NCBI GenBank assembly: GCA_027492735.1
Contig: JAPUEE010000011.1
Location: forward strand, 1-64,000
Source of the DNA: Candidatus Saccharimonadota bacterium
Lineage (GTDB): Bacteria > Patescibacteriota > Saccharimonadia > Saccharimonadales > Saccharimonadaceae
DNA length: 64,000 nucleotides
Reading direction: 5' to 3'
The position numbers and the translations under genes are program-made. Under the pieces are notes generated by a model. The model made no database searches. It was not told where the DNA came from and saw nothing but the letters and a program-made list of their open reading frames with translations. Below are positions 3,809-52,181 of the stretch, piece after piece (position 1 is the stretch's first letter; the number at the start of each line of letters is the position of its first letter).

Positions 3809-4612
3809 TTAGTCGCGAGTGAGAACTAGGAGAAAAGGACCACTTTCATCGACACGGTAGTCGTGGTGCTCTGAGAACTTTATCGTTTCAGCTAGTTGTC
3901 TGGTATCTAATTCTAATAATAACGTGCCGTGTTCCGATACATGCTCTTTTGCCTGAACGATGAGCTTCTTGATTAATTCTAGGCCATTATCAGCGGCGAA
4001 TAGAGCTCGTTGTGGCTCGAACGTAGTATCGGGCGAAACTTCCCATGTCGGATCGACATAGGGGAGATTAGCAACAATGATATCGAATTGACCAGATATG
4101 TCGGCTAACAGATCGGATTCTACAAATTTCACTTTGGCGTCTAATTTAGCGGCATTTTTACGTGCAATTTCTAGAGCGACAGGGGAAACATCGCTAGCAG
4201 TGATAGTAGCATTCGGCATCTCCGTGGCTAGGGTGACGGCAATCGCGCCGCTACCCGTGCCGACATCTAGAATATTGGCATTTGAAAAATCGCCATTTAG
4301 CACGAATTCGATCAGAGCTTCGGTTTCAGGTCGGGGAATCAATACGTCAGGCGTGACAGTGAAGTTACGACCATAGAACTCTCGTTGACCGACTAAATAG
4401 GCAATTGGGTGGTGCTGCGTTCGCTGTGCGACCAGGTCATCGAATAGCTTTCGTTCTTTGTCATGTAGTTCCTGGTCGTTATGGGCGTGTAGCCATGTAC
4501 GATCGACTTTTAGGACAAATGCTAACAGAATTTCAGCATCGAGACGGGCCGATGCACTATGTGTTCTATACAGGCGGTCTGTCGCTAGGTCTATTGCAGT
4601 TTCTATCGTCAC
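3809..4612 (-). CDS. prmC: release factor glutamine methyltransferase
   Basis: 267 residues with the PrmC/HemK layout: an N-terminal helical domain ending in PIAYLVGQREFYGR and VTPDVLIPRPETEALIE, SAM motif I ILDVGTGSGAIAV, and the catalytic motif NLPYVDP (NPPY in most homologues). It N5-methylates the Gln of the GGQ motif in RF1 and RF2, both of which are in this window (prfA at 8563, prfB at 29825). Pro to Leu in the second motif position is the one deviation. Confidence 0.92.
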   Translation of the reverse strand: MTIETAIDLATDRLYRTHSASARLDAEILLAFVLKVDRTWLHAHNDQELHDKERKLFDDLVAQRTQHHPIAYLVGQREFYGRNFTVTPDVLIPRPETEALIEFVLNGDFSNANILDVGTGSGAIAVTLATEMPNATITASDVSPVALEIARKNAAKLDAKVKFVESDLLADISGQFDIIVANLPYVDPTWEVSPDTTFEPQRALFAADNGLELIKKLIVQAKEHVSEHGTLLLELDTRQLAETIKFSEHHDYRVDESGPFLLVLTRD

Positions 4613-4690: not shown

Positions 4691-5344
4691 ATGAAAAAGA
4701 TCCATCAAACACTGTTGTCACCTCGTAGCATTGAACGATCGTCCAATTTGTATCGAGGAATTATCATGAAGTTGTCTGATGTAGCGCTGAATGGTCTGGT
4801 TGCTTCCGGTACTACCACGAGAAGCGACGAAGAGGGTGGTTTCGCAAACTGGGGTGAGAATTCCGGAACATACGCTAGTAGTGATATTCGCACGGCACGT
4901 CTCTACGCTGATACTGGTGCGCTCATAAATCGACAAACTAACCAACTCTCGACACGTGATCAGGATGATTGGACCGTGGGTGTGGTTCGTCGCATCGATA
5001 ACGAGCATAATGACCTGGGTTTTGATCGTGCGCGACCTCAAAAATGGTTGATGAAATTAGACAAATGGATTGCTCATTACGTTATGGGCCGCACTGAATA
5101 TATTACCGTAGAGGAAATACCAGAGGATAAAACGTCAGTGAGAGAAGTCTATTTGTTTCAGGGTGGAACATTGTATGCCAAGTTCGACACTGATGCGGTG
5201 GCACTAGAATCAATTTCGAATACTTTACGAGCCCATCATGGTTATCTGAACGGCGAAGAGGGTGGTGTACAGATCGCTCGGAGCAAGATACGGCGAATTG
5301 ATAGGGTATTTAGCTCTATAGGCGTCAATGAAAAGAAAAGGTAA
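4691..5344 (+). CDS. possible ADP-ribosyltransferase-fold protein
   Basis: 217 residues without a clear family match. Three features in order resemble the ART/PARP-like fold: LYRG near residue 20, GTYASSDIRTARLYAD in the middle, and EYITVEEIPEDKTSVREVYLF in the second half, similar to the Arg / Ser-Thr / Glu triad with its E-x-x-V-x-x-I-P context. This is pattern recognition only. An internal ATG at 4766 has a better Shine-Dalgarno (GAGGA) but would remove the LYRG segment. The next gene is a nucleotidyltransferase-like protein, after a hairpin. Confidence 0.4.
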   Translation: MKKIHQTLLSPRSIERSSNLYRGIIMKLSDVALNGLVASGTTTRSDEEGGFANWGENSGTYASSDIRTARLYADTGALINRQTNQLSTRDQDDWTVGVVRRIDNEHNDLGFDRARPQKWLMKLDKWIAHYVMGRTEYITVEEIPEDKTSVREVYLFQGGTLYAKFDTDAVALESISNTLRAHHGYLNGEEGGVQIARSKIRRIDRVFSSIGVNEKKR

Positions 5345-5424: not shown

Positions 5425-5976
5425 ATGGCCCTATTTAGAAAACGTTCACCAGACACTACACCATTTACCCCTGTAGAATCAGAAACTACCTACAAGATTT
5501 TGGATACACTCCAGGCTTCGGATCTAGATCCGAAGGCAACGCTACTCGTCGGTAGCGCTGCCTTGGCTTTACATGGAGCAGTGCTGCATGCCGCTCCTGG
5601 TGAAACTCGCCCAGGCGACGTTGATTTACGAGTCACAACCACACTAGCTCAGGATATATTTGCCCAAGGGTCCTTCAATAGTGCGCCTATTACTATAAAA
5701 GATAACGGAAATCACAAAGCGATGACAGTGTTGCGTCTCGAGACTGCGCCGTTACCGATTGATTTGATTACTGCACCTCTCCATACAATGCGTCGCGAAT
5801 CCTACGACGCCAGGCTCGAAAAGAGAATTGCGGCCGCTCGTCCAATCGTAGGTACCAGGGGTTACCGTATTGTATCGCTCGATGATATCATTCGTGCGCA
5901 GAGGAATAATATGGATGACAAGTCGAGAGATGATCTAGCAAGCGCCTATGAGCTGCTCGTCAGACAGCGCTACTAG
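5425..5976 (+). CDS. nucleotidyltransferase-fold protein
   Basis: 183 residues. LLVGSAALALHG followed by RPGDVDLRV matches the G-S-x(n)-D-x-D metal-binding pattern of the pol-beta/MNT-AbiEii-like nucleotidyltransferase fold, and the C-terminal RIVSLDDIIRAQRNN...DDLASAYELL resembles the helical tail of such proteins. Some members are antitoxin or toxin components and others modify tRNA or antibiotics; I cannot tell which. AAAAAGGA precedes the start. It follows the ART-like gene but seems to have its own promoter region. Confidence 0.55.
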   Translation: MALFRKRSPDTTPFTPVESETTYKILDTLQASDLDPKATLLVGSAALALHGAVLHAAPGETRPGDVDLRVTTTLAQDIFAQGSFNSAPITIKDNGNHKAMTVLRLETAPLPIDLITAPLHTMRRESYDARLEKRIAAARPIVGTRGYRIVSLDDIIRAQRNNMDDKSRDDLASAYELLVRQRY

Positions 5977-6018
5977 TGTTAACCGGTAGGGATCAGTGAT
6001 TTCCCCTCCCAACCCCCC

Positions 6019-6050
6019 TTGACACCAGGGGGGGGGGTAGGTGCTATATT
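6019..6050 (+). promoter_or_regulatory. promoter with a G10 tract in the spacer
   Basis: TTGACA (6019-6024) and an extended -10, TG-C-TATATT (6042-6050), are separated by 20 bp, longer than the usual 17. Ten consecutive G residues (6028-6037) lie inside that spacer. Slippage of the tract would change -35/-10 spacing; seven G would give 17 bp. It drives the collagen-like gene at 6117. Confidence 0.65.
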
Positions 6051-6116
6051 ATAAGCTATAACAATTTATAGCTCTATATAAAGAGAGAATATAGAAGAGA
6101 GAGAGGGAATCAAACC

Positions 6117-6812
6117 ATGACTCGTTTACCAACACCAGGCTCCGATGCAGGAGAGTGGGGCACTATCCTCAATGACTACCTATCCCAAGCCCATAACACA
6201 GACGGTACTCTAAAACCCGCTATTATTACCTCAACTAATCTAGCTCCAGGTGCGGTAACATCAGCCAATCTCTCCCAAGACATCCAAGACCAACTCGATA
6301 CCATAGCTGGCCAACAAGGTGCCACGGGTCCTACTGGCCCTGAAGGCGTTCAAGGTCTCCAGGGTGCTACCGGAGCACCAGGTCTCATTGGTTCAACAGG
6401 CCCCAGTGGCTCACCAGGTCAAGCAGGAGCTACCGGTGCAGCAGGTACACCAGGAAGTAATGGCGCTACAGGGGCAACAGGTCCCAGTGGTGCAAGTGGA
6501 ACACCAGGGATAGTTGGTGCAACGGGAGCAAGTGGACCTACGGGTACTCCAGGTTCACAAGGGGCAACTGGTCCATCAGGCCCTTCGGGAACACCAGGCA
6601 TAAATGGCACTAATGGACAAGATGGAGCGACGGGAGCGACGGGGCCGGCAGGAGCGACCGATATCAACGGCATCACTGGCCTTCGTAGCGAACTAGACAA
6701 CAAAGTCACCGGCCAAAACGGTACTACCGCCCTATGGATTGGTATACAAACCGAATACGACGCCCTACCAACCCATAATGCCACAACGCTGTATGTTGTG
6801 CGGGATGCCTAA
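6117..6812 (+). CDS. collagen-like Gly-X-Y repeat protein
   Basis: 231 residues. Residues 1-65 are LPTPGSDAGEWGTILNDYL-type sequence found at the base of tail-like and collagen-like proteins, about 66-180 are an uninterrupted run of Gly-X-Y triplets rich in GATGPTG and GTPG units, and the last 50 residues form a globular cap. Such triplets form trimeric triple helices in bacterial surface proteins and phage fibres. No signal peptide, membrane segment or sortase motif is visible. It sits 18 bp before the LamG protein gene and is probably cotranscribed with it. Confidence 0.85.
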   Translation: MTRLPTPGSDAGEWGTILNDYLSQAHNTDGTLKPAIITSTNLAPGAVTSANLSQDIQDQLDTIAGQQGATGPTGPEGVQGLQGATGAPGLIGSTGPSGSPGQAGATGAAGTPGSNGATGATGPSGASGTPGIVGATGASGPTGTPGSQGATGPSGPSGTPGINGTNGQDGATGATGPAGATDINGITGLRSELDNKVTGQNGTTALWIGIQTEYDALPTHNATTLYVVRDA

Positions 6813-6830
6813 GGCAAAGGGGCTAGACTG

Positions 6831-8525
6831 ATGGCGTTGATAGCAGAGTATGGGTTTGAACAACCGAGTGGGGGAATATTCACCGACCTAACGGGCAACG
6901 GCTATGATTTGACGATGGGCCAGAATGCAGTACGGGTAGAAGGGCACGGCGGCAGTACACAGGCCATCCAGGCGGGGAGCGGCGTACAAATGGACCTCGG
7001 TGCTGCCGCCTATCGTGCGTACCCTGGTGGCTCACCTATGCAAAACGCGACGACGTGGGCGTTTTGGGCCAAGCTTACCGATATGAACGATGGTACTCCG
7101 TTAGTGTGCGTATGGAACGAATCCGGCCGCACCGATCCGATGAATGTATACATTGACTCCGACGGTTCGCTGGAGGCTTGGTGGTATGATGGTGCTGAAG
7201 GGGGCGGCTCGTTAAGCACGGACACTGGGCTTGTTGAAGTCGGTACATGGGTGCATATTGCGGCTGTGTTTGCTCCGGGTACGAGCGTGAAGTTGTATGT
7301 TAACGGGGTGGCGGCGGCAACATGGTCATGGCAACCTGGCAGCAATGCGCTGTATAGTAGCTGGGAAACATTGCTCGTCGGTTCTTCCAGGTGGGGGTCA
7401 AATGCGGCTATCATTGATGATTTGCGTATTTACAACGAAGCATTATCACAGGCTGCAATTGCTGCTTTGATGGACCAGGTGATTGATGAAGGGGAAGCTA
7501 TCAATACTATGAAGGTGGCTGATGCACCTATAAAAAGTTTATACATTGGCGCTGTGCCAGCCGCGCGAGCTTACTTGGGTGATGTTATTGTGTATCAGGG
7601 CAGCGCAACCACTCCGCCTGTAGATGACGGTGGTGATGGCGATGACGAGGAGAGCAATGGCGAGTACCCGACCGTTACTAATACCGGCGTACCAACTGGC
7701 CAGACACTGACGGCAGTGCCAGGGCAGGTGACCTCTGGTCCCGGCTGGGCCTGGATGACTGTCTATGGGCAGCCTTGCGTCAATATTTACGATGATGGCG
7801 CGGTCCTAAGCGGTTTAGATATCGATGGCCCAATCTACAATAATGGCGCCCAAAGCCCGCGTACCGCTTGCTCGAATGTAGTCATAGAGAACTGTCGTAT
7901 ACGCGGGACTGGCGAGGAAAACTGGGTGATTACGCTTGGGCCAAATTCTACCGTGCGAGATTGTGAAATTGGTGGTGGTGCTAATGGCACGACAACAGTA
8001 GCGATAGGTATCCTTTCGGGCTACTACGCGGGAACACAGGCGACGAATACGATACTGCGCTGCAATATTCATCACGTCGAACACGGCATGCGAGTTGATG
8101 GTAATACGATTGTGCAGGATAGCTACTTCCATGATTTTATTATGGATGACCCGGCTAATCATACCGATGCCATTATGTGTACGGCGGGGACAGATATGCA
8201 CTTTATTCATAATACTATCGAGGCGGGCGTGACGAATTCAGGGCTATTTATCCAGTGGCAAACGGGCAATACATCGATAGGTGTTGTGGAAATACGTGAC
8301 AATTATTTCCAATTCTTGTCGAAAGCGGGTGCAGTGCCTTCATGGGGAGTATCGTACGAAAATAAAGGTGTGGCCAACCCGGCCCAAACTACTATCACGA
8401 ATAACCTTTGGGATCTTGCGTTTAAGACCACTAATGGCTCTGGGGCAATCCAGGCACCGGCGGGCTATGCGGCGTCGGGCAATGTTTATACTGACGGAAG
8501 CGTAGTAGTGGTTGAGGACAACTAG
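6831..8525 (+). CDS. LamG plus beta-helix tail/adhesion-like protein
   Basis: 564 residues. Residues 1-215 form a LamG/concanavalin-like domain (LIAEYGFEQPSG, WAFWAKLTD, WVHIAAVFAPGTSVKLYVNG, AIIDDLRIYNEALS). At 230-255 comes KSLYIGAVPAARAYLGDVIVYQ, a motif I associate with minor tail proteins of actinobacterial phages. An acidic Gly/Asp linker follows, then 275-560 reads as a right-handed parallel beta-helix (repeated VVIENCRI, TILRCNIHH, TIVQDSYFHD). There is no signal peptide. Base composition looks more GC-rich than flanking genes, consistent with acquisition. Confidence 0.75.
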   Translation: MALIAEYGFEQPSGGIFTDLTGNGYDLTMGQNAVRVEGHGGSTQAIQAGSGVQMDLGAAAYRAYPGGSPMQNATTWAFWAKLTDMNDGTPLVCVWNESGRTDPMNVYIDSDGSLEAWWYDGAEGGGSLSTDTGLVEVGTWVHIAAVFAPGTSVKLYVNGVAAATWSWQPGSNALYSSWETLLVGSSRWGSNAAIIDDLRIYNEALSQAAIAALMDQVIDEGEAINTMKVADAPIKSLYIGAVPAARAYLGDVIVYQGSATTPPVDDGGDGDDEESNGEYPTVTNTGVPTGQTLTAVPGQVTSGPGWAWMTVYGQPCVNIYDDGAVLSGLDIDGPIYNNGAQSPRTACSNVVIENCRIRGTGEENWVITLGPNSTVRDCEIGGGANGTTTVAIGILSGYYAGTQATNTILRCNIHHVEHGMRVDGNTIVQDSYFHDFIMDDPANHTDAIMCTAGTDMHFIHNTIEAGVTNSGLFIQWQTGNTSIGVVEIRDNYFQFLSKAGAVPSWGVSYENKGVANPAQTTITNNLWDLAFKTTNGSGAIQAPAGYAASGNVYTDGSVVVVEDN

Positions 8526-8562: not shown

Positions 8563-9627
8563 TTAGTCTTTTTGTGATTTTAGAACCCGTTCGCGAGCCT
8601 GTAGTTGTTCGATAATATCGTCAATGTCGCCGTTCATGGCCTGTGGAATACCGGAGCGGCTATAGCCGATGCGGTGATCAGTGATACGATCTTGCGGGAA
8701 GTTATAGGTGCGGATCTTTTCTGATCGATCACCTGAACCGATGAGTTCGCGACGTTCGGCGGTAAGTTTGGCGTTTTCCTCATCAATTTTAATCTGGAGC
8801 AGGCGAGAACGTAGGACGCCCAGGGCTTTTTCCTTGTTTTTGATCTGGGATTTTTCATCCTGGTTGGTCACCACGATCCCCGTGGGCAAGTGAGTGATGC
8901 GAACGGCACTGTCGGTCGTGTTGACGCTCTGACCACCATGGCCACCAGCGCGAAATACGTCAATGCGTAGATCGCTCGGGTCGATCTGGACATCTGTTTC
9001 CTCGGCCTCGGGTAGAACTGCTACGGTCACAGTGCTGGTATGAATACGACCTTGGCTCTCGGTGGTCGGTACACGTTGGACGCGATGGACGCCAGATTCG
9101 AATTTGAGTTTTGCGTATGGCTGGTCGCCTTTGACTTTGAAAATAACTTCTTTGTAGCCACCAGCATCATTCATGTTTTCGCCGAGGAGTTCGGTTTTTA
9201 AACTATGGTTTTCAGCGTAGCGTAGGTACATGCGATAGAGTTCAGCGGCAAATAGGGAAGCCTCATCGCCACCAGCCCCAGCGCGGATCTCGACGATAGT
9301 GTTTTTATCGTCATTAGGATCACGCGGGGTGAGCATGTCGGTCAACGTAGCCTCTAGATCACTAATTTGTTTCTCTAGAGTAGGGATTTCTTCGCGGGCC
9401 AGTTCGGCTAATTCATCGTCACTACTCGATAGCTCTCGGGCCTCGACGAGTTGCTTTTCGGCAGTCTGCAGCGCGGTGTAGCTGTTAATGAGAGTTTCGA
9501 GCTCGTTTAGTCGGCGAGTTTTAGTGGCGAAATCAGGATCAGCGAACGCATCGGGGCGTGCCAGAAAATCGGTCAGAGATTGCTGCTCGGCCTGTAATGC
9601 GGATTGATCGATGGTGATAGTACTCAT
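8563..9627 (-). CDS. prfA: peptide chain release factor 1
   Basis: 354 residues of normal RF1 length. The codon-recognition region reads [17 protein letters not shown], with the RF1-specific P-x-T tripeptide for UAA/UAG, and the peptidyl-hydrolysis loop is [19 protein letters not shown] with the GGQ that PrmC methylates. It lies downstream of rpmE on the minus strand, as in many bacteria, but a hairpin separates the two. Confidence 0.97.
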
Positions 9628-40110: not shown

Positions 40111-40755
40111 ATGAGAATGGCAAGAGGGGAACGAGAAACCTGGGCGATAGATATTGACGATGTGTGTTTAGATTATGGTGGTGGGTTTACTCGCTTTAAT
40201 AATCGGGTTGGTTGGACATCTGGCATGAGGCCGCATGACTACAGCGAGCAATGGGGGCAGTTATGGGGGGGGGTCGGCTCGGAAGAAATAGCTAGACGGA
40301 CGACTTCTATGAATCGTGGCATGAATCCATTTTTGCGGCCGGTCAGAGATTCACAGCTAGCTCTCGCGGCTCTCGCGAAGCATCACGATTTAATAATACT
40401 AACCTCTAGGCCGAGGGATATTCATGAAATCACAAAATCGACTATAGACAGACATTTTCCTGATATATTTCGAGATATACGCTATCTCGAAGGTGGCTGG
40501 GGTGATCGAGGGGCTAACGAAGCAGTCACCAAAGGCGAAACTGCCATAGAGATCGGTGCTTCGACATTAGTTGATGATCAACCGCGCCATGCCATTGGCA
40601 TGGCTATGGCTGGTGGTGTTGGTCTATTGTTTGGCGGTAGTCAGTTAGCGGCCACTACTGTCTCGGACGAGGCCGGAGTAATAAAGGTGGCCACGTGGAG
40701 AGAGGTTCTAGATCATGCTGGAATCGAACCTGACTCAGCGCTTCCTCAGGACTAA
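40111..40755 (+). CDS. HAD-superfamily 5'-nucleotidase-like protein with G9 tract
   Basis: 214 residues. AIDIDDVCLDY is HAD motif I (D-x-D), LIILTSRPRD motif II, and GASTLVDDQPRHA motif IV, in the arrangement of NT5C-like (deoxy)ribonucleotidases. ATG 40117 has better spacing to GAGAAAGG than 40111. Nine consecutive G (40265-40273) encode Trp-Gly-Gly-Val about residue 52; a one-base slip would truncate the protein. The 3' end overlaps the convergent methylase by 21 bp. Confidence 0.7.
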   Translation: MRMARGERETWAIDIDDVCLDYGGGFTRFNNRVGWTSGMRPHDYSEQWGQLWGGVGSEEIARRTTSMNRGMNPFLRPVRDSQLALAALAKHHDLIILTSRPRDIHEITKSTIDRHFPDIFRDIRYLEGGWGDRGANEAVTKGETAIEIGASTLVDDQPRHAIGMAMAGGVGLLFGGSQLAATTVSDEAGVIKVATWREVLDHAGIEPDSALPQD

Positions 40756-51656: not shown

Positions 51657-52181
51657 TCAGCAGGGGGGGGGGTTCTCCCCATCGAGGAACTCGAACAGCC
51701 GCTCGTCGAAGTCAGCTGTGACTTCGAGTTCGTCGTTTGCCCACTTGGAGCTGACGTTGCCGACGATCTCGGCTCCTCGCGGATCAGGGTTTGAATCCCC
51801 GACCAGGCCACTGATGACGTGACAGCTCCTTGAACGGATGTGGCGGTAGGCCCAGTTGAGAGCTGTGACCACATGGTCGGCCAGCTCGAAGTAGTCCTGG
51901 GCGCAGAGCAACTGCGTCTGGATATTCGCAGGCTGCTGGCGCAGCGCTGCGACATCGTGCTCGTTCGGCATGACGAAGCCGAACTTCGTGACCGGATTGC
52001 CGGTGTTGAACTGCGGCATCGGCTCACCGGTGAGGTGGACCGCGACGAACACTGAGCCGTCGCCACCTCCCGAGCCGATCAGCAGACCGTTGCTCGAGGC
52101 GACGAGTTTTCGCACGGCGACTTCTGCGAAGTCATTGTACTCGTTGTACACCGTCTCGATCGCATATGCAACCGAATCCAT
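51657..52181 (-). CDS. GC-rich orphan gene ending in a C10 tract
   Basis: 174 residues. AGGAAGGGA lies 8 nt before the ATG. The sequence (DSVAYAIETVYNEYNDFAEVAV, GLLIGSGGGDGSVFVAVHL, DYFELADHVVTALNWAYRHI in parts) matches no family I know; it looks globular and acidic. Codons are strongly GC-ending, unlike neighbours, suggesting transfer. Ten consecutive C on the coding strand (G run 51663-51672) encode the last Pro-Pro-Pro, so slippage would change only the extreme C-terminus. Confidence 0.65.
   Translation of the reverse strand: MDSVAYAIETVYNEYNDFAEVAVRKLVASSNGLLIGSGGGDGSVFVAVHLTGEPMPQFNTGNPVTKFGFVMPNEHDVAALRQQPANIQTQLLCAQDYFELADHVVTALNWAYRHIRSRSCHVISGLVGDSNPDPRGAEIVGNVSSKWANDELEVTADFDERLFEFLDGENPPPC

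Follow-up and report, generated by a model that had tools for sequence, protein, structure and literature searches.

Candidate surface-fibre cassettes of probable phage-tail origin and their association with Tat genes in Saccharibacteria

Phase variation at the promoter through homopolymeric tracts occurs in Neisseria, for instance at fetA and porA. Helicobacter pylori sabA carries tracts both in its promoter and in its coding sequence (PMC2715451), and in a Gracilibacterium a hypervariable gene with PTD repeats, predicted to encode a surface protein, varies synonymously within a coding repeat (PMC6851277). Then there is the matter of export. The twin-arginine translocase (Tat) moves folded proteins, and partners without a signal can ride with one that bears it (PMC4273604). 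A Tat system has been noted in 'T. rhizospherense', with four Tat-motif genes, two of them of unknown function (PMC6031116), and in freshwater Saccharimonadia (PMC9166423). The papers searched mention Tat in Saccharibacteria without tying it to fibres, and nothing nearer was found in them; nor was any text found in the literature on phase variation by G runs in promoter spacers in Saccharibacteria or CPR. These matters bear on host recognition and host change in ultra-small episymbionts, for which few attachment factors are known.

The P1/P2 pair and its relation to phage

The window (the whole stretch of DNA analysed, 64,000 nucleotides from a Saccharibacterium) contains two genes, P1 and P2, on the same strand and separated by 18 bp (Table 1). 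The first-pass annotation had described them as a collagen-like protein and a LamG/beta-helix protein, neither with a signal peptide, and in this it was right: open reading frames and Pfam matches confirm the pair, and a hydropathy scan agrees on the signal peptides. P1 matches Pfam Collagen at 3.1e-19 and, in the comparison with phage tail profiles that the annotation had suggested, Phage_tail_C (PF24243) at 6.9e-8, which passes the family cut-off. Residues 13-25, within the N-terminal LPTPG module, are predicted to form a helix. P2 matches Laminin_G_3 (2.8e-20) and Beta_helix, the latter at 1.6e-5 and 25.1 bits, slightly below the cut-off of 25.9. Neither protein has a stretch hydrophobic enough for a signal peptide or membrane anchor, as judged by the mean Kyte-Doolittle value over 19 residues, which peaks at 0.76 in P1 and at 1.19 in P2, where the first 60 residues reach 0.36. 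Sequence searches of the PDB with P2, with its beta-helix alignment, and with the LPTPG module gave no match, and an AlphaFold model of P2 made without an alignment (pLDDT 35) was not usable.

The pair lies between prmC (3809-4612) and prfA (8563-9627), both on the minus strand, with two open reading frames of no known function (4691-5344 and 5425-5976) between prmC and P1. It is not within a prophage or a tail gene cluster, and no phage gene was recognised in the interval from prmC to prfA. A prophage remnant was rejected on the basis of these flanks. Base composition sets the pair apart from neighbouring sequence, with a G+C content of 0.54 at 6001-8000 and about 0.45-0.50 around it.

Residues 272-562 of P2 are 42% identical, over about 300 aa (E 9e-69), to a protein encoded by an IMG/VR contig of 65% G+C. 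The genes beside it there encode a major head protein (4e-109), a head-tail adaptor (2e-63), and a major tail protein (1e-29). Four further IMG/VR contigs contain the P1 module (RLPxxGxD..W...LN..L). L149 and L150 also encode a major head protein within the stretch that holds the module, and in L149 and L152 the gene after the module gene opens with a sequence of the 'FExGxNG' type, like partners found in the Saccharibacterium's own genome. Six Streptomyces phage records also contain the module, which in the two examined lies among tRNA genes. A search with P2 of 50,697 phage records gave nothing at E 0.01, and the LamG part alone gave weak matches only, the best at 5e-3.

The relation to phage that the first-pass annotation proposed is thus borne out by the beta-helix homologue, by Phage_tail_C in P1, and by the P1 module in phage structural modules; the homologues are neither confined to chromosomes with clear export signals nor unrelated to phage. 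What does not stand is the claim that the KSLYIG segment (KSLYIGAVPAARAYLGDVIVY) marks an actinophage minor tail protein, since its matches to mycobacteriophage, at E 0.3-0.8, are not significant. To judge by sequence, P1 and P2 are very probably derived from phage tails and now chromosomal, and the source may have been a phage of a host. The P1 module is a widespread Saccharibacteria family rather than one recent capture; the beta-helix of P2 may have been captured recently.

Table 1. Features of the P1/P2 locus, in coordinates of the window
Feature	Coordinates	Strand	Basis
Predicted sigma-70-type promoter: TTGACA (6019-6024), 20-bp spacer with G run, TATATT (6045-6050)	6019..6050	+	Sequence, consensus match only; layout shared with several prepilin genes and with other LPTPG loci
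G run of 10 within the promoter spacer; putative tract for phase variation by strand slippage	6028..6037	+	Sequence pattern counts
Inverted repeat AGCTATAA-caat-TTATAGCT in 5' leader, perfect 8 bp, 4-nt loop	6054..6073	+	Read from sequence; also at C22 locus, nearly at C3
P1, candidate signal-less collagen-like fibre protein, 231 aa	6117..6812	+	ORF list, Pfam, hydropathy
LPTPG module, RLPTPGSDxGxWGxILNDYLxxxHxxDGTLK, P1 N-terminus conserved across a multigene family	6117..6224	+	Sequence comparison
Collagen-like Gly-X-Y stretch of P1, 39 triplets, residues 65-181	6309..6659	+	Pfam, sequence
Phage_tail_C (PF24243), C-terminal domain of P1	6732..6803	+	Pfam
P2, partner protein, 564 aa, no signal peptide	6831..8525	+	ORF list, Pfam, hydropathy
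LamG (concanavalin A-like) domain of P2	7041..7463	+	Pfam
KSLYIGAVPAARAYLGDVIVY linker segment of P2, residues 235-255	7533..7595	+	Sequence; non-significant likeness to mycobacteriophage minor tail proteins
Beta-helix region of P2, homologue in phage structural module	7644..8516	+	Sequence comparison

The LPTPG family and its G-run promoters

The genome that contains the window has ten loci with the LPTPG module, seven with the full start region and three cut off at codon 17 where the contig ends. Among 61 related genomes, representing 61 genera, 23 have the module. Saccharibacteria account for nearly all of the best 80 loci that bear it. In the window's own genome, the LPTPG proteins have collagen regions, joined in some of them by phage-tail-repeat or lectin-like parts. 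A second gene comes after each of the seven with a full start region, at a distance of -1 to 26 bp; these second genes encode LamG with a beta-helix (P2), CotH (in two cases), a protein with a PKD domain, or unassigned proteins. In G013, G023, and G036 as well, LamG genes stand directly 3' of LPTPG genes. Most LPTPG copies lie away from tatC, in the own genome between housekeeping genes. The two second genes of the CotH kinase family (L037, 9311-10870; L040, 3868-5136) encode no evident signal peptide.

Upstream of P1 the sequence runs TTGACA, CCA, ten G, TAGGTGC, TATATT, a predicted promoter whose run of G the first-pass annotation did not mention. Nine of the ten LPTPG loci have a run of 9-14 G, preceded in eight of them by TTGAC. 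The pattern TTGAC-N1-10-G9 matches 15 times in this genome, against none for the reversed pattern, and of its 21 distinct runs of at least nine G, 13 lie within 10 bp after TTGAC, three of these at prepilin genes (C13 and C21). Across 294 genomes of the order, TTGAC-N-G9 gives 59 matches against 3 reversed, distributed over 15 genomes and 9 genera, and the genes 3' of the pattern encode LPTPG proteins, prepilins, proteins with apparent Sec signal peptides, and others. In the own genome most spacers are longer than the 17 bp that is ideal, measuring 17-22 bp where the promoter is clearer, and several loci have an ambiguous -10 box. Ten is by far the commonest tract length (23 of 45 tracts), and two near-identical promoters at contig ends have G12 and G13, lengths that are taken from assemblies and may err by one G. 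Runs of 9-14 G are unstable in other bacteria. It is likely, given the tracts and where they lie, that these promoters are phase-variable, a proposal that goes beyond the first-pass annotation.

Several contigs of the own genome (G000) break at codon 17 of an LPTPG gene or just past a G-run promoter: C24 and C17 at their starts and C6, C3, and C5 at their ends. C24 and C6 share their end sequence, as do C5 and C17, and the recurrence of the same sequence at contig ends points to repeats or shuffled cassettes beyond what the assembly could separate.

G runs of 9-12 are also found just 5' of four prepilin-like genes, on C13 (L081, near 5805 and 6308), C18 (L083, near 6326), and C21 (L084, near 5120), three of the four with a clear TTGAC -35 sequence. 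The gene in L083 has an apparent frameshift. Phase variation may extend to the pilins of this bacterium. Elsewhere in the window, the gene at 40111-40755 has a G9 run at 40265 within its coding frame, which could subject it to translational switching, and a G+C-rich gene on the minus strand (51657-52181; 0.545), without a Pfam match, has a G10 run at 51663, its 3' end. A diversity-generating retroelement was considered and rejected: the sole reverse transcriptase match lies in a restriction-modification-like island, and no pair of template and variable repeats was found between the stretches compared. The enzyme, of about 450 aa (L079; C11, about 76000-87000), sits in an apparent type I restriction-modification island and is possibly a defence reverse transcriptase.

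Association with TatC and a small twin-arginine-like protein

The own genome encodes both TatA and TatC. Among the 61 relatives, 23 have LPTPG genes and 24 have TatC (over the cut-off), the 23 all falling within the 24 (Fisher p 6e-16), and among 286 genomes of the phylum, 14 have LPTPG genes and 24 have TatC, again with all 14 included (p 1e-17), although related genomes are not independent samples for such p values, a reservation softened but not cancelled by contrasts within genera and by how widely the genomes are spread across families and classes. When the two samples are merged, every one of the 31 genomes with LPTPG genes has both TatC and a small protein of 56-82 aa, marked by (S/T/D)-R-(K/R)-x-F-L, a hydrophobic segment, and GYGxxxYGG at the C-terminus.

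The small protein is present in all 24 relatives with TatC, plus G045, and in all 14 genomes of the phylum sample with LPTPG genes, plus two weak matches. In the ten genomes of the phylum sample that have TatC and no LPTPG gene, it was never found (p 5e-7). One genome, G024, combines TatC and the small protein with no LPTPG gene; a search for LPTPG found none there or in G045, G002, G009, and G010. Within single genera, G142 has all three (LPTPG, TatC, and the small protein) where G137 has none, G035 and G130 have all three where G140 has none, and G007 has all three where G145 has none.

In 16 instances, from 15 genomes, the small gene precedes an LPTPG gene by no more than 250 bp, when about 0.03 such instances would be expected, and it lies just 3' of tatC in 19 genomes. 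An LPTPG gene is within 3.5 kb of tatC in 13 genomes, and tatC - small gene - LPTPG gene is a frequent order. On contig C6 of the own genome, tatA, tatC, and the small gene are followed by two more genes and then by a G-run promoter and the start of an LPTPG gene, 2.8 kb beyond the tat group. By the adjacency criteria used here, the small gene adjoins neither tatC nor an LPTPG gene in 9 of the 31 genomes.

All 17 of 17 small proteins match NCBIfam NF038009, 'twin-arginine translocation system-associated' (best 3e-23), the one from the own genome at only 32 bits against a family cut-off of 100. Three of the 17 match the TAT signal model TIGR01409, and all except a few miss the curated TAT-signal models; in most the basic pair is R-K, not R-R. 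A link of NF038009 to the LPTPG family, or its absence from Tat-bearing genomes without LPTPG genes, was not found described in the papers searched. The association of LPTPG genes, Tat, and the small protein goes beyond the first-pass annotation, which had the proteins 'perhaps exported by an unknown route'. The absence of a signal peptide stands, while co-occurrence and adjacency point to a known machine, Tat, put to an unusual use.

LPTPG genes of 60-62% G+C are also found in records that bear the labels Mycolicibacterium, Sinomonas, Mycobacterium, Gordonia, and Pseudonocardiales (L226, L213, L193, L198, and L175). A small twin-arginine-like gene directly precedes the LPTPG gene in L226; L213 has a TatC-like gene close to its LPTPG gene, and L175 a TatA-like gene. 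Such records reflect either transfer to hosts or episymbiont DNA inside host assemblies.

A model of export and display, and its relation to known systems

I propose a model that would join the observed homologies, co-occurrence, gene adjacency, and promoter layout through physical binding, Tat export, switching, and host recognition. P1-P2 would be one of about ten cassettes in its genome for phage-tail-derived, signal-less surface fibres and their partners, P1 serving as a collagen-like stalk tipped by a domain of phage-tail type and P2, with LamG and beta-helix, as a partner that binds carbohydrate or a surface. The fibres would fold in the cytoplasm and then leave by the translocase (TatA/TatC). 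The small protein would bind the LPTPG module, take the folded fibres and bound partners to Tat in the manner of a 'hitchhiker', and probably keep the fibres at the membrane as an anchor. Gain or loss of G in the promoter spacer would turn each cassette on or off, so that cells of one population would display differing sets of fibres to bacterial hosts. Taken whole, the model seems to me slightly more probable than its negation.

Tail-type fibres presumably trimerise and fold before use, which would suit Tat better than Sec. Since Tat carries folded and signal-less cargo, and the fibres would fold first, the small protein is proposed as the guide of LPTPG fibres to Tat; that it binds the module is suggested by adjacency of the genes and their common distribution. 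As P2 lacks the LPTPG module, it would have to be bound to P1 for export. The size limit of Tat, set against a long collagen trimer, could pose a problem. From the genomic evidence, dependence of the fibres on Tat is probable, adhesion to hosts is moderately favoured, and the chance is even that the small protein is a pilot rather than an anchor or a Tat subunit.

The small protein might instead be a membrane dock inserted by Tat, or a TatB-like subunit, with LPTPG proteins leaving by other means (lysis, the pilus machinery, or an unrecognised signal) and binding the dock afterwards. NF038009 bears the NCBIfam name TatB_1, given by its curators, so the small protein could be a Tat subunit, but the ten Tat-bearing genomes without it argue that it is not a general one. 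A YGxGxYG-like motif occurs also in small proteins that carry a membrane segment at the C-terminus and are encoded beside LPTPG genes (L175, L183, and L193), and so could be an extracellular docking tag. However, P1 and P2 have no other export signal, and it is TatC itself that LPTPG genes track, so I consider this account rather unlikely. It is quite improbable that tat, the small gene, and LPTPG genes simply travel together on one mobile segment, which would make their co-occurrence uninformative on export. All three are adjacent in several genomes (e.g. G514, G575, G142, G043, G050, and G060) and their presence is patchy even inside genera, but LPTPG copies are mostly scattered away from tatC, and yet none of the 31 genomes with LPTPG genes lacks it; mere co-transfer followed by loss of tat would leave genomes with LPTPG genes alone. 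As for the small proteins of L175, L183, and L193, they have a basic tail after the membrane segment, some with an NTG motif before it, and resemble the small Tat-associated protein at its C-terminus; they may be a second dock.

Tail-type domains, a clear phage homologue, and a G+C content that departs from the surroundings are what one would expect if P1 and P2 were debris of a prophage of the Saccharibacterium, without a cellular role. It is too much to ask of debris, however, that it should lie between prmC and prfA without any recognised phage gene in the interval, and that there should be ten loci of the same family with promoters of one design, open frames, partners, and a strict link to tat, and I regard this origin as very improbable. 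The G runs present a different question: they might be a fixed feature of a class of promoters, with no switching of expression, as the dominance of length ten would suggest. That is unlikely, in view of the instability of such runs in other bacteria, the difference in length between near-identical promoters, and the surface genes downstream, which are the usual targets of phase variation.

Under the proposed model of Tat-exported, switchable fibres, P1/P2-type cassettes are a candidate attachment set with a putative switch, an export route, and an adaptor. The link to Tat and the putative G-run switch suggest how a parasite could display changeable host-recognition fibres. If the model is true, then the Tat system of these bacteria, almost without known substrates so far, gains a main job, and there is a further case of multi-cargo Tat export by way of a common docking module. 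More tentatively, phage tail fibres may have become in Patescibacteria an exchangeable, phase-variable surface set to which Tat is devoted, a small adaptor reading the shared N-terminal module, so that a general code for Tat export would lie in the cargo's adaptor and not in a signal peptide.

How does this compare with what has been described? A homopolymer run in the promoter of a surface gene is common to Neisseria fetA and porA, H. pylori sabA, and the cassettes, but here the runs are in Patescibacteria and recur across a fibre family and pilins, and the switching is putative. The Gracilibacterium PTD-repeat gene shares the variability of a predicted CPR surface protein and differs in having no promoter switch and no link to Tat or phage tails. 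Earlier reports of Tat (PMC6031116, PMC9166423) concern the same translocase in the same class but name no fibre proteins. The family NF038009 (TatB_1) is matched by every small protein compared, and the gene often adjoins tatC. Phage tail fibre and minor tail proteins resemble the cassettes in their domains (collagen, LamG, and beta-helix), in the close homologue that the beta-helix has in a phage structural module, and, in viral contigs, in the order of module and partner, but the genes here are chromosomal, scattered, individually promoted, linked to Tat, and without virion genes around them. Finally, in the Tat hitchhikers of E. coli (HybO/HybC and PaoABC; PMC4273604), a signal-less folded partner exits with one that bears the twin arginine. 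P1 and P2 likewise lack an export signal of their own and the translocase is present, but where the partner in known cases is an enzyme subunit, here one pilot of roughly 60-80 aa would serve many different fibre proteins through a common N-terminal module.
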